Source of the DNA: a virus
DNA length: 64,000 nucleotides
Strand: one strand, 5' to 3'
IMG/VR virus record: IMGVR_UViG_3300047457_000500
Location: 1 to 64,000 of that record
Of this stretch, positions 15,004 through 20,594 are shown piece after piece. Numbering within the stretch: the first letter of the stretch is position 1; every line of letters begins with the position of its first letter. Both the position numbers and the translations under genes were made by a program. The notes below the pieces were generated by a model, which was given only the letters and a program-made list of their open reading frames with translations, made no database searches and was not told where the DNA came from.

Positions 15004-15666
15004 CTACCAGTCGATGTTTGTCGCTGAGGTAGAAGATGGCGAATCAAAGCCTAGGTAGAATGCTTCTTGCTCCGCATATGGAACACGACGCAATGCTTTC
15101 TCTAGTGGGTATGGTTCGACGTCATCCCAATTGAAAGGCTCCTTATCTGGAGCGGAAGGAATTAAAGTATAAGATGTTTCAGTACCCTGACCATTACGCT
15201 TTAACTTCCATGTTAGATTTGAAATACTGCCAGTCTCTAAGGCGTATTCACGAATAATGTTAAATGAAGATTGCTTGCTTACGCCCATTGACCAGATAGC
15301 GACGTATGGCTTGTCTTCAATTCCATCATCAACAAGGACATTGCAGTAGAAGCGCAAACGGCCACGCCATCCGCTATTACCCTTTGGATCCTTGCGATAC
15401 ATTTCTTCGGCCCAGTCACGACCTTCTGTATCCATTGTGTCTACAGCCTTGCGCTTATAGTCCTTTGGATTTGTATGTTCCTTTACAACAAGCGCTAGTC
15501 CACGCTTATCGTTATAGTTTGCTGAATCCTCATCCAACTCTTCAATGAATCGAATCTTAACTGCCTGTCCATCAGCCAACTTAAGCCAACGAACCTTTGG
15601 ACCAGCCTCGTCTGTTTTCTTATCGAGCAGGGCATTAATGTTTTTGAGTCCCTTAATAACGCTCAT
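15004..15666 (-). CDS. Putative single-stranded DNA-binding protein
   Basis: A 220-residue protein placed just before the polymerase gene and directly behind a perfect sigma-70-type promoter, with AAAGGAG as ribosome site. The middle part is an OB-like beta region (RGRLRFYCNVLVDDG, YVAIWSMGVSKQSSFNIIREY, LTWKLKRNGQG). The C-terminus is Ser/Thr-rich with a final NIDW. Position, strong promoter and aromatic/basic beta core fit a gp32-like phage SSB that coats replication and recombination intermediates. Sequence similarity to known SSBs is not obvious by eye, so the function is inferred. Confidence 0.6.
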   Translation of the reverse strand: MSVIKGLKNINALLDKKTDEAGPKVRWLKLADGQAVKIRFIEELDEDSANYNDKRGLALVVKEHTNPKDYKRKAVDTMDTEGRDWAEEMYRKDPKGNSGWRGRLRFYCNVLVDDGIEDKPYVAIWSMGVSKQSSFNIIREYALETGSISNLTWKLKRNGQGTETSYTLIPSAPDKEPFNWDDVEPYPLEKALRRVPYAEQEAFYLGFDSPSSTSATNIDW

Positions 15667-15689: not shown

Positions 15690-15718
15690 ATTATATACTA
15701 GCAAATTATGTTTGTCAA
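15690..15718 (-). promoter_or_regulatory. Consensus sigma-70 promoter TTGACA-N17-TATAAT
   Basis: On the minus strand TTGACA (15713-15718) and TATAAT (15690-15695) are separated by exactly 17 bp, a full match to the housekeeping consensus. The -35 box overlaps the stop codon of the halogenase gene. It drives the SSB-polymerase-recA genes and is likely an early promoter read by the host RNA polymerase. Confidence 0.88.
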
Positions 15719-17166
15719 GTCGTTGAGTTATATTTATTAAAATATTCTTCTATCTCTATTCCTTTAAACTCTTTTGCCTCTTTATACAGTTTATCATATG
15801 CCTCTTTTGTTTGCAAGTTAGAAACTGCATTGTTTTTATTAAATTGTCCTGTGCCAACATAAGTAGTCATCCATGACTGATATCCAAATGTTTTATTATT
15901 ATTGTTAATAACAAAATTAGATATATAATCATTATCTAATTCAGCCAGCACTTTTTGGGCGTACTCTGGAACAACATTTTTTTGTTTAAAGTTTTTCCAG
16001 AAATCTGTATCGTCTCGATCTGTTAAATAATGTGTATATATAAACCCTAGCAATTCTTCATTTTTTTCTAATACTTTATTATTGTATTTTTCTAATACAG
16101 AATAATCTTTTTCAGTTATAAATTTATGCAAAAATTCATCAGATATAAAAAGACTCATCATATAAATAGTTAACATAATTGATGTTGCATGTAAAGGCTC
16201 AAAAAATCCAGAAGCAAGCCCTACAGATAAACAATTTTTAGACCAGGGCTGCTTGTAGTATCCTGGATTAAAATCAAAATGATTTACTATTTTTACATCT
16301 TCTTTTTTAAATAAATCATATATTTCTTGTTCTGCCTGCTCTTTATTTATGTATGATGGATCATAAACATATCCACAGCCATATCTATGTTTCAGTGGTG
16401 TCTTCCATACCCATCCGTACTTCATTGCAATTATTTCTGTACATAAAAAATAATTTTCATCTTGTGGCAAAAAGAATGCTAGGGCCTTAGTGCATGGCAA
16501 ACTTTTAGATGTGTCTACCCACTCTGCCTGTAAATGTTTTCCAACAACTAGATTTTTAAAACCTGTTGCATCTATTACAAAATTACAATCATAGTTTCCT
16601 TTTTCTGTATACACAACGCTAATGTTGCCTTCAAACTCTCCAAAATGTGTAAAGACATCATCAATAATTTTTATACCACGCAACTCAGAATGCTTTCTAA
16701 AAAACTCAGCAAGTTTAATTGCATCTAGATGCCAACCAATATAAGGCCATGAAAGTGTGTTGGTTAATGTTGCAGATAAACCTTTGTTTATATCATCAAG
16801 GTTTTTGCTATTTGACATTAATTCTATAGATGCAAGTTTAAACTGCTCTAACGCTAAGTTTCTATCTGTATCACTATCCGATATGTAGTTTGTTAGTGGA
16901 TGAAAATATGATTTGTTACTTTTAGACCAACCAGTAAATCTTATTCCATTTTTTAATGTTGCACCAGTATGTTCTATAAATTCATTTAATGGTAATTCTA
17001 ACTCATCAAAAATATAACCAAAGTTAGAAGTTGTCCCCTCTCCAGCACCTAATACCCCTATCTTAGAACTATCTATTATAGTAATATCAGAATTTTTATA
17101 TTTATGCTTAATAGTAAGTGCTGCTAAATATCCAGCAGTGCCTCCACCTATTACAACTATCTTCAT
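15715..17166 (-). CDS. Flavin-dependent (tryptophan-type) halogenase
   Basis: A 483-residue FAD enzyme of the tryptophan halogenase family (PF04820 type), which uses FADH2, O2 and halide to halogenate a substrate through HOCl and a lysine chloramine. It starts at ATG 17166, overlapping the previous stop (ATGA). Visible motifs are the FAD-binding GGGTAG (residues 7-12), GVLGAGEGT (37-45), the catalytic Lys72 in LKNGIRFTGW, W252-V-W254-K-T-P257 (the WxWxIP motif with Thr for Ile), and Glu323 in GLASGFFEPLHATSI. All key residues are present, so it is probably active. The substrate is unknown and no flavin reductase lies nearby. Viral halogenases are known from cyanophages. This one sits in a three-gene cassette with AhpD-like and membrane proteins. 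Confidence 0.88.
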   Translation of the reverse strand: MKIVVIGGGTAGYLAALTIKHKYKNSDITIIDSSKIGVLGAGEGTTSNFGYIFDELELPLNEFIEHTGATLKNGIRFTGWSKSNKSYFHPLTNYISDSDTDRNLALEQFKLASIELMSNSKNLDDINKGLSATLTNTLSWPYIGWHLDAIKLAEFFRKHSELRGIKIIDDVFTHFGEFEGNISVVYTEKGNYDCNFVIDATGFKNLVVGKHLQAEWVDTSKSLPCTKALAFFLPQDENYFLCTEIIAMKYGWVWKTPLKHRYGCGYVYDPSYINKEQAEQEIYDLFKKEDVKIVNHFDFNPGYYKQPWSKNCLSVGLASGFFEPLHATSIMLTIYMMSLFISDEFLHKFITEKDYSVLEKYNNKVLEKNEELLGFIYTHYLTDRDDTDFWKNFKQKNVVPEYAQKVLAELDNDYISNFVINNNNKTFGYQSWMTTYVGTGQFNKNNAVSNLQTKEAYDKLYKEAKEFKGIEIEEYFNKYNSTT

Positions 17167-17465
17167 AAAACCAATCCAAAATGTTTTAGTATTGCCAAAG
17201 ATGCCAAACATGTCCAACCTATATTAAACAATATTACGGTAGGTAATGTCTTAACAGTAGAGGACCATATTAATAATAAACTTGAAAGTAGCGCAAAAAT
17301 ATATAACCACCACCATTGTTGTCCCAATAACAATCCTGGGAAAATAATAACTAATTTTGTCATGAATGCAAAAAACTCAACACGATTTGCTTTATTCCAA
17401 TAAGATCTACTTTTCATAGTTGCTAGTGCTATAAGCCAAGCAGGTTTATTATTTCCCACGATCAT
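17163..17465 (-). CDS. Small multi-span membrane protein of the halogenase cassette
   Basis: A 100-residue protein, from ATG 17465, with about three hydrophobic segments (EFFAFMTKLVIIFPGLLLG, WWWLYIFALLSSLLLIW, VILFNIGWTCLASLAIL). The N-terminal 30 residues are polar and basic (MKSRSYWNKANRV). It overlaps the AhpD-like gene by 17 bases and the halogenase by four, so all three are translated as a unit. Family not recognised. It could anchor the halogenase activity at the membrane or transport a substrate. Neither is shown by the sequence. Confidence 0.65.
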   Translation of the reverse strand: MIVGNNKPAWLIALATMKSRSYWNKANRVEFFAFMTKLVIIFPGLLLGQQWWWLYIFALLSSLLLIWSSTVKTLPTVILFNIGWTCLASLAILKHFGLVL

Positions 17466-17967
17466 ACCCAAACATATTGATATCTTCTGCTGAAGGTAAC
17501 CAAGTATGAATATTTTCTTCTATTCCGTGCCCCTCAACAAGTCTATTGAACATATTAAATGCAGCACATATAGCAATTGCATCCTTTAGTTCATCCTCAG
17601 AATAACCTCCATTGTAAACCTTCTTAACATCTTCCTCTGTTAATTCTGATGGAGTTAATGTAAGTTTTTTAACATAATCTAAAATTGGTGCTATTTTTAT
17701 ATCAGAATAATTTTGATTAATAATTTTATCAAGTTCTAATTCATCGGCACCTACAGATATGGCAAATACTCTATGAGACCCAGTACAAAACTTACACTTA
17801 TTCAAACTAGATGTGAATGCTGCAATTGTTTCTCTTTCTGGCACACTTAAAAATGAATCTTTTCTTAAGATATTTTGTGCAAAAGAAAGTAACATCATGT
17901 ATCTTTCTGGGTTTTGCATAAAAATATTTACTATTGTGCTACCGCTTGGTATTGAATTTAATAACAT
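17449..17967 (-). CDS. AhpD/carboxymuconolactone decarboxylase-like protein
   Basis: A 172-residue all-helical protein with the AhpD active-site signature E-x13-C-x2-C-x3-H: Glu44, Cys58, Cys61 and His65 (NKCKFCTGSH). In AhpD the CxxC pair and His/Glu relay reduce peroxides. Related peroxidase-like proteins act in oxidative stress. Here it is the first gene of the halogenase cassette, two bases after the primase gene, so it is read with the replication operon. It may protect the cell against peroxide or HOCl made near the halogenase, or handle the substrate. That link is inference. Confidence 0.78.
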   Translation of the reverse strand: MLLNSIPSGSTIVNIFMQNPERYMMLLSFAQNILRKDSFLSVPERETIAAFTSSLNKCKFCTGSHRVFAISVGADELELDKIINQNYSDIKIAPILDYVKKLTLTPSELTEEDVKKVYNGGYSEDELKDAIAICAAFNMFNRLVEGHGIEENIHTWLPSAEDINMFGYDRGK

Positions 17968-17969
17968 TT

Positions 17970-18914
17970 TTATTTTAAAAGAGAAAGAATAGACTTATCA
18001 AAATCATGATTTAATTTCATTATCTCCTCATTCTCCATTTCTCCTATATCTTTATATTTAGAGTCTATATTAATTACAGAAACACCTGAGCCAAACCTTT
18101 TAATAAGCCTGTCTTTCATATTTTCTCCAGCCTCGTCATTGTCTGCAATAACAATTATATCAGAAAAATATTTTTCAAGTAGGTCTAACTGCTTAGTAGA
18201 TACATTAGCACCTAAAGTTGCTACTGCTGGAAACCCTACCTGATCTAATCTTATTGCATCAAAAGAAGATTCAACCACATAAACTTTAGAAGCCGTCTTT
18301 ACTCTATTTAAATTAAACAATAATTTTGACTTAGGAAGTTTTGGAGTATTTTTAAAATCTTTTCCCTCTACAGATCTTGCAACAAATCCAACGCACAAGC
18401 CCTCGTGGTTATGTACTGGTATAGAAATCATATCCTGATTTTCAGAATATCCTAGTTTAAACTTAGATATAGATTGTTCTGCTATTTTTCTTTTAGCAAA
18501 ATATGCTTTTGCTCTATCAGACTTGAGTGCTTGATTATTTAGTCTGTCGATTACTAACAAATCAAAGCCTTCCCACTCTTCTTTTTCTATTAACTTAGAA
18601 TTAATTTCGGAAAGTATGTCTACTTCAACTTCTTTACTTTTAATAAATCTAACAGACTCAAAGTATGTTCTATTAGAAAAGTGCATAACCAATTCTATAA
18701 GATCTGCAGTTTTTCCACAAGAAAAACAAAAAAATAATCCAGTGTATTTATTTATTTCTCCAGCAGGGGTTCGGTGATTAGAATGAAATGGACAAAATAC
18801 AATATACTCAGACTCTGATTCTTTTTCTACAGTTACGCCAGATCCTGAGAGTACTCTTTTAACCTGGCTGGCTGTGTATATATTGGCTTGATTCCGTCTA
18901 TCCCTAGTATCCAT
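17970..18914 (-). CDS. dnaG: DnaG-type primase
   Basis: A 314-residue primase with a CHC2-type zinc finger (C41 and H44 in CPFHSNH, C63 and C66 in CFSC). A TOPRIM domain follows, with VYVVESSFDAIRL (catalytic Glu, about residue 215) and IIVIADNDEAGE (DxD, about residue 258). It lacks the C-terminal helicase-binding domain of bacterial DnaG (about 600 residues). It makes RNA primers for the phage polymerase. AAAAGG supports the ATG at 18914 although this overlaps the previous gene by 82 bases. Confidence 0.88.
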   Translation of the reverse strand: MDTRDRRNQANIYTASQVKRVLSGSGVTVEKESESEYIVFCPFHSNHRTPAGEINKYTGLFFCFSCGKTADLIELVMHFSNRTYFESVRFIKSKEVEVDILSEINSKLIEKEEWEGFDLLVIDRLNNQALKSDRAKAYFAKRKIAEQSISKFKLGYSENQDMISIPVHNHEGLCVGFVARSVEGKDFKNTPKLPKSKLLFNLNRVKTASKVYVVESSFDAIRLDQVGFPAVATLGANVSTKQLDLLEKYFSDIIVIADNDEAGENMKDRLIKRFGSGVSVINIDSKYKDIGEMENEEIMKLNHDFDKSILSLLK

Positions 18915-19172: not shown

Positions 19173-20394
19173 CTGACTTATCTTCATAGTCCTTATACCT
19201 GTAATATCCCTTATCAAAATCAGCCTGAACTAGGAATTCTCCCATAAAACCATTACGGTTCTTTCTAAATACACACTCAATAATATCGCTATTTGTTCCT
19301 CTACCCAAAGCCAAAACCCAGTCAGCATCATATGCTATCTGCCTTGACCACGCTGTTTGCCCTAGAGTAGGGACAGTATCAAGTTTTGTAACGTCATCTG
19401 GAGTAGCGGAAGAAATTGCAATAATTGGTACTTCTTCTGCAATTGCCATGAGTTTAAGTTCTCGTGAAAGGTTTTTCATTCTTACAGTTTCATTGTCAGA
19501 TTTTTGATTTGGACTCATTAGTTGTAAGTAGTCAACAATAACAAAGTCTGGCTTATACTGATCTATCTTTCCACGAAGAACCATTGGGTTAATGTCACCG
19601 CCAGTATCATTAGATACGATATGAAACTCTGGCTTTCCCTGTACACTTTTTGCATGCCATGATTTAAGCATATCAATTTCAACTTGTCCAGCACTTAACT
19701 TTCTATGTGACCAAAGGCCTTCCCCCATAATTGCAAAAACACGATTACGAACTTCTGTTTCTGACATCTCAAGGCTGATAACCATAGGGCTGCGACCTTG
19801 CTTCCAGGCCTGTACAGCGAAATAGAGAGACAACCATGACTTTCCTATACCTGGATACGCTAGAAAGACCCCCAACTGCCCTGGCATAATTCCAGATGGC
19901 AAGTAATTATCAAAACCTGGAAGTCCAGTTTTTATACCCAATGCTCCAGCATCTTGTTGCTTTTTTAAGTTTTCAAAATATGCCACTGCAGAATCTAAAT
20001 CTGTAACATCAATATCACGAATTGCTGCTGTATTTTTTCTAAGTTCTGCTGTCTTTGTAATTAGCGATTCAAGCGCATCAAGTCCTTGTCCTCCTTGTAC
20101 GTCTGTTGCAGCAGATCTAATGATATCCTTTAAACTATTTGTTAGATACTCTGCCTGTAATTCTTCAAGGTGATGCTTAGTAGTTCCAACACCGCCAATA
20201 GGCTCAAAGTCTCTAAATTTTTCTACAACCAACTCTGTTGGTGGAACTGTGGAATTAGCCTCGTAGTACTTTCTAATAAACTGCCAAACATCTACATGAG
20301 TTGTTAATATATTTTCAACGTTGGCCTGTAATAAAACATGGGCCTGCTTATCTTTTAATACGGCTGAGATTAATTTTGATTCTGTATTATTCAT
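19168..20394 (-). CDS. dnaB: DnaB-like replicative helicase
   Basis: A 408-residue hexameric helicase of the RecA-fold DnaB family. The short N-terminal helical domain (MNNTESKLISAVL...) is followed by Walker A YPGIGKS (residues 180-186), the MVISLEMSE motif and Walker B FVIVDYLQLM. The C-terminus includes the arginine-finger region (AWSRQIAYDADWVLALGR). It unwinds the fork for the phage polymerase. It overlaps the DUF2061 gene as ATGA and is followed closely by the primase block. Confidence 0.92.
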   Translation of the reverse strand: MNNTESKLISAVLKDKQAHVLLQANVENILTTHVDVWQFIRKYYEANSTVPPTELVVEKFRDFEPIGGVGTTKHHLEELQAEYLTNSLKDIIRSAATDVQGGQGLDALESLITKTAELRKNTAAIRDIDVTDLDSAVAYFENLKKQQDAGALGIKTGLPGFDNYLPSGIMPGQLGVFLAYPGIGKSWLSLYFAVQAWKQGRSPMVISLEMSETEVRNRVFAIMGEGLWSHRKLSAGQVEIDMLKSWHAKSVQGKPEFHIVSNDTGGDINPMVLRGKIDQYKPDFVIVDYLQLMSPNQKSDNETVRMKNLSRELKLMAIAEEVPIIAISSATPDDVTKLDTVPTLGQTAWSRQIAYDADWVLALGRGTNSDIIECVFRKNRNGFMGEFLVQADFDKGYYRYKDYEDKSV

Positions 20395-20594
20395 GATCTA
20401 CCCCATTTAACGGTTAGCCATACTCTTTCATGAATATAATATAAAATAAAGTTAATAACATTTGACACAATAGTAACAGATGTAGCAAACATGGTGTCGC
20501 CTGTCATAAAATAAATAATAGCAAAAGTACTAAATACTGCTATCAATCTCCATGTAATTGATTTTGCTAAAGATCTTTGTTTTGTACTATTCAC
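20391..20594 (-). CDS. DUF2061 family membrane protein
   Basis: A 67-residue protein with two hydrophobic segments. RSLAKSITWRLIAVFSTFAIIYFMTGD, FATSVTIVSNVINFILYY and the C-terminal HERVW are hallmarks of DUF2061, a small bacterial membrane family of unknown function. It starts with GTG overlapping the previous stop (GTGA) and overlaps the helicase start. A membrane protein inside a replication operon is unusual. It could tether the replisome to the membrane, but nothing in the sequence shows this. Confidence 0.8.
   Translation of the reverse strand: MNSTKQRSLAKSITWRLIAVFSTFAIIYFMTGDTMFATSVTIVSNVINFILYYIHERVWLTVKWGRS

Follow-up and report, generated by a model that had tools for sequence, protein, structure and literature searches.

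A halogenase homologue, a small membrane protein and a peroxidase-related protein as a putative modular accessory system in a freshwater-type actinobacteriophage

A homologue of flavin-dependent halogenases (HAL), a three-helix membrane protein that partners it (TM) and, in some phages, a peroxidase-related protein (AHPD) may together constitute a modular phage accessory system, a reading which is favoured here tentatively and at slightly less than an even chance. The genes were found in a stretch of 64,000 nucleotides (the window), positions 1 to 64,000 of virus record IMGVR_UViG_3300047457_000500, which is linear, comprises 123,487 bp and is possibly incomplete. Because related viruses mix and match the three genes at one genome spot, genome comparison makes it very probable that their products function jointly. 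As a mechanism, a host reductase would supply FADH2, HAL would form a C4a-hydroperoxyflavin and, with halide, a hypohalous species, and Lys72 would steer this species onto an electron-rich substrate, while TM would keep HAL or the HAL substrate at the membrane and AHPD would clear peroxide leaked by halogenase-type enzymes. Although halogenases of viruses are no recent discovery, we know of none for which a native substrate or role has been demonstrated.

The slot between primase and SSB

The phage is a freshwater-type actinobacteriophage and a relative of the Stanwilliamsviridae; its DnaE polymerase is 52-55% identical to those of Streptomyces phages of this family such as BillNye and Annadreamy, and the record contains a WhiB gene, consistent with a host among the actinobacteria. 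An earlier note on this DNA had placed a three-gene cassette inside a phage replication operon, and indeed three intact, tightly packed open reading frames are located between the primase on one side and SSB and the DnaE polymerase on the other, the minus-strand gene order being helicase, primase, AHPD, TM, HAL, SSB and DnaE polymerase (Table 1). The end of AHPD overlaps with TM by 17 bp and TM with the start of HAL by 4 bp (ATGA), which renders the translational coupling of the three genes, as had been claimed, plausible. The start of HAL is the ATG at 17166; the list of open reading frames has an earlier TTG start upstream. The replication operon also encodes a DUF2061 membrane protein (window 20391-20594), relatives of which are found directly upstream of the halogenase in two other loci (L050, L052).

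Table 1. Features of the cassette and its borders, with positions in the window.
Feature	Position	Strand	Description
AHPD	17449..17967	-	AhpD/CMD-family peroxidase-related protein, 172 aa; E46-x11-C58-x2-C61-x3-H65
TM	17163..17465	-	small membrane protein, 100 aa; halogenase-partner family of phages
HAL	15715..17166	-	flavin-dependent halogenase homologue, 483 aa; Lys72 kept, His326 at catalytic Glu position
DNA primase	17970..18914	-	upstream border of the variable slot
SSB	15004..15666	-	downstream border of the slot; phrog_9721, 145 bits
Promoter-like TTGACA-17-TATAAT (12/12)	15690..15718	-	overlaps the stop codon of HAL and precedes SSB; consensus match only
Promoter-like TTGATA-18-TAAAAT	17972..18001	-	within the 3' end of primase, before the cassette genes; consensus match only

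While the primase-SSB junction of BillNye- and Annadreamy-type Streptomyces phages is devoid of cargo, that of the window is filled. A census in which relatives were picked by SSB alone yielded 79 loci with the whole slot visible; 68 of these are empty, with a gap of approximately 20 bp and at most 31 bp between primase and SSB, and the 11 filled slots hold TM (4), TM-HAL (3), AHPD-TM-HAL (2) or AHPD-HAL (2) and no other type of cargo. When the cargo genes themselves served as seeds of the scans, three further slot contents appeared: AHPD on its own, AHPD-TM and TM-AHPD. Conserved synteny of the three proteins, which had been proposed as a check, was thus recovered in part: the trio does recur, but in near-identical phages only (both AHPD-TM-HAL slots of the census are near-identical to the window), and partial combinations are found otherwise. 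In comparison with the loci L020 and L021, the DNA identity of primase and HAL is mostly 71-98% and that of TM 64-75%, and AHPD is missing there, which identifies the cassette as a mosaic.

In phages with an empty slot, the 3' end of the primase gene contains a promoter-like sequence, the counterpart of which in the window is the upstream element of Table 1, again a consensus match. Just before SSB, a strong promoter-like sequence (11-12/12, consensus match) is present in the window, L021, L022, L025, L009 and L142 and absent from L014, L080 and L164. Its position before SSB in several filled slots suggests that cargo could enter without silencing SSB and the polymerase.

The halogenase homologue and its altered active site

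HAL reaches 302 bits against the Pfam family Trp_halogenase (cut-off 21), and its structure model (pLDDT 92.8) is nearest to Xcc4156 (Foldseek E 1.6e-36) and BrvH. With the bacterial enzymes Xcc4156, BrvH, PyrH and PrnA it has the fold in common (TM-score 0.77-0.84) at approximately 25% sequence identity, along with the lysine, the WxWx[IT]P motif and a Thr-Ser halide site which matches T351-S352 of BrvH. The flavin site GxGxxG is present as GGGTAG (residues 7-12) and WxWxIP as WVWKTP, with Thr in place of Ile, and Lys72, invariant across 46 aligned HALs, corresponds to the essential lysine of PyrH (Lys75) and PrnA (K79). The earlier note had counted all key residues as present, with Glu323 as the catalytic glutamate, and had named the Lys/Glu geometry as a point to be checked; the fold, Lys72 and the other motifs bear this out, but Glu323 is the glutamate with which the EPL motif opens and not the catalytic one. 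In the alignment of FFEPLHATS of HAL with FVEPLESTG of PyrH, catalytic Glu354 (E346 of PrnA) is replaced by His326 and Ser355 (S347 of PrnA) by Ala327, whereas the bacterial enzymes possess Glu/Ser or Glu/Ala at these positions.

Among 76 distinct viral HALs surveyed, His326 is found in all seven distinct sequences of the clade to which HAL of the window belongs (72-100% identity), throughout together with Ala327, and Glu in all 67 others that cover the site; Glu is equally kept in HAL2, a second halogenase of the same genome, in both Syn10 halogenases and in HTVC008M. The clade is under purifying selection, as dN/dS values of 0.08-0.18 indicate that the change from Glu to His is maintained, and, with His fixed clade-wide, decay was ruled out. 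Replacement of the glutamate in PrnA (E346Q) slows the reaction approximately 100-fold, and K79A abolishes it (PMC5727139). With the catalytic Glu absent, halogenation by this clade, perhaps with His as the base, is possible judged from sequence, but cannot be assumed, and HAL is consequently classed as a halogenase homologue and not as a proven halogenase. In agreement with the earlier note, profile searches for a flavin reductase (PF01613, PF03358, PF00881) of the 123-kb record, which is linear and may be incomplete, gave no match.

Cyanophage and pelagiphage tryptophan halogenases (VirX1, 6qgm; Syn10, HTVC008M) share Pfam and PHROG family and fold with HAL at 27-34% identity. They retain the catalytic Glu, however, and tblastn found no relative of TM or AHPD in isolate phages, whereas the window has both. 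Cyanophage Syn10, from which VirX1 is known, encodes a tandem pair of halogenases of the ESNG and ESTG types (L174:1401-4506); the length of one of them agrees with that of VirX1.

An altered catalytic site maintained by selection, with His326 and Ala327 in 7/7 clade sequences, would equally be expected if the clade no longer halogenated and HAL were a flavin monooxygenase or oxidase acting on its target in the way that QhpG acts on a peptidyl Trp; TM and AHPD would then go back to an ancestor that did halogenate. The structure of QhpG resembles that of halogenases, and its reaction is the hydroxylation of peptidyl Trp (PMC7876137). QhpG, LodB and GoxB, which act on peptidyl Trp, possess a related flavoprotein fold according to published comparison and give weak profile matches to HAL. 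Such a change of function is nevertheless considered unlikely, although it is to be taken seriously: the scores of HAL are far under the NCBIfam equivalog cut-offs for LodB (34.4 bits vs 400) and QhpG (23.6 vs 240), Lys72 and the WxWxxP motif, the latter said to hinder monooxygenation (PMC5945002), are retained among the halogenase motifs, and the Thr-Ser halide site is that of BrvH.

The membrane protein as partner of phage halogenases

At least 561 viral proteins are related to TM, the model of which (pLDDT 80) shows a short N-terminal helix and then a bundle of three membrane-type helices; six tryptophans are invariant or almost so across 48 of the relatives. Pfam and PHROG searches gave nothing over cut-off and only weak sub-threshold matches, the PDB gave no real profile match, and the best Foldseek E-values are 0.44 (PDB) and 0.19 (BFVD). 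SemiSWEET, MPC and PQ-loop proteins, three-helix proteins as well, are the top Foldseek matches of the model, but with E > 0.1, a TM-score of mostly approximately 0.45 and no sequence match, and membership is not claimed. A pattern scan of 84,980 bacterial species genomes found no TM; TM is a phage-specific family without a name.

The constant partner of the halogenase is TM, not AHPD. Outside the slot, a first scan (the best 80 of at least 561 TM relatives) found HAL beside TM, in both gene orders, in 29/31 loci and AHPD beside TM in 2/31, and a second one, seeded with a distant TM, found HAL near TM in 22/31, mostly overlapping by at least 4 bp. On the HAL tree, linkage to TM requires at least six changes on well-supported branches and spans the ESTG/ESNG and the EATS types of HAL. 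Co-occurrence in 49 records points the same way, with HAL present in 26 of 27 TM-bearing long records, each of which has a single TM, and with both TM and HAL in 2 and neither in 13 of 15 long SSB-selected records, all TM and HAL counts being non-independent, since the records are for the most part fragmentary and numerous loci nearly duplicate one another. Chance neighbourhood was ruled out by the slot census together with this co-occurrence.

Adjacency is not universal. In several phages, TM is the only cargo of the slot and HAL is encoded elsewhere in the genome with no TM beside it; in L211 and L212 the HAL away from TM is 60-63% identical to one with adjacent TM in another phage. Some HAL-bearing records are without TM, three of which carry AHPD, and TM is found with no HAL in view in L178-181, L185 and L205-207. 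In L205, L206 and L207, no halogenase is located within approximately 5 kb of the TM relative, and TM may therefore also work without a halogenase.

HAL2, of the canonical ESTG motif, is encoded outside the window on the minus strand (record 99910-101457; L004). As its nearest relative, L147 (52% identity), has TM adjoining, the single TM of the genome may serve both enzymes. Near HAL2, two 2OG-Fe(II) oxygenase genes (record 95834-98386; L004) are flanked by genes which read like sulfotransferases. A weakly DUF6065-like family of approximately 235 aa is present in two copies further along the record (approximately 117.2-118.7 kb; L005:14212-15671), and its relatives adjoin halogenases in L065, L208, L211 and L215.

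That HAL, TM and AHPD are a loose set of morons at a permissive site, which act separately and have only their location in common, is quite improbable. The slot lies at a promoter-bearing junction tolerant of insertion, cargo combinations differ, and TM or AHPD sometimes stands alone, all of which a loose set would accommodate; it would hardly leave 11 filled slots without any other cargo, nor a TM-HAL pairing that persists at unrelated genome positions, in both orders and in several HAL lineages.

The peroxidase-related protein and the function of the set

AHPD scores 31.9 bits against Pfam CMD (cut-off 23) and 73.4 bits, below the cut-off of 81.8, against NCBIfam TIGR01926 (peroxid_rel), and its match in the PDB is a peroxidase-related CMD protein (6k40; E 1.3e-15). 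The E-x11-CxxC-x3-H site of AhpD and these proteins is kept in 13/13 distinct viral sequences. It had been read as E-x13-CxxC-x3-H, of which the CxxC-x3-H part stands, while E-x13 was dropped since E46, and not E44, is invariant among the relatives. AHPD differs from AhpD and the TIGR01926 proteins in being phage-borne and in the absence of an AhpC gene from the 123-kb record. A relative of 48% identity is encoded in a genome bin of Actinomycetota (L297:2611-3147, contig named 'Lanier') in a context which is not phage-like, next to genes suggestive of a sugar transporter, which makes a host origin of AHPD plausible.

Part of the turnover of the halogenase Thal escapes as H2O2 and free HOX (PMC7948982), so that an enzyme which removes peroxide makes sense alongside a halogenase, and by this analogy the role of AHPD would be peroxide clean-up. 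AHPD is paired with three distinct HALs, as those of the AHPD-HAL loci L009-L013 (approximately 30% identity) and of L163 (approximately 44%) differ from HAL of the window, and it also pairs with TM separately from HAL. Missing from most HAL loci, it is not essential. Another phage (L212) encodes AhpC and an AhpD other than AHPD downstream of HAL, from which one gene separates them; the two genes overlap by 4 bp (L212:2763-3841), and TM stands alone in the primase-SSB slot of the same phage.

These pairings, the AhpC/AhpD genes near the L212 HAL and the restriction of slot cargo to the three genes favour the joint pathway of halogenase and peroxidase-like protein which the earlier note proposed, but the trio is confined to near-identical phages, the constant partner is TM, and His replaces the catalytic Glu. 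An ordinary halogenase-peroxidase pathway with a host metabolite, a surface molecule or tRNA as the target of halogenation is correspondingly improbable, for while it would account for the halogenase fold, the AhpD-like active site and the recurrence of halogenase genes alongside AhpD-type ones, it does not lead one to expect a non-canonical HAL active site or TM, not AHPD, as constant partner, and no finding of the analysis indicates tRNA or either of the other two as substrate.

Within the favoured modular system, TM is a candidate for a tether, a substrate channel or a substrate. The last is the least probable of the readings discussed here: the Trp-rich TM would itself be halogenated or hydroxylated by HAL on tryptophan and used, so modified, in infection, with AHPD guarding against leaked peroxide. 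QhpG would be a distant precedent, as would the halogenase which reportedly acts on the ribosomal peptide NAI-107; if true, TM as substrate would represent a phage-encoded system for peptidyl-Trp modification.

The kind of enzyme is known, and a lone halogenase has been mentioned in an actinobacteriophage (PMC10611076). The literature searched, mostly non-subscription, yielded no published description of TM or AHPD as partners, of their recurrence, of the slot or of the clade without the Glu. The recurrence of TM across several lineages of phage halogenases, together with the recurrent peroxidase partner, suggests where such enzymes act, and the clade with the change from Glu to His offers a natural test of the role of the catalytic glutamate. 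If the pair modifies the envelope or a membrane protein, phages of aquatic actinobacteria would thereby interact with their hosts in a novel way.
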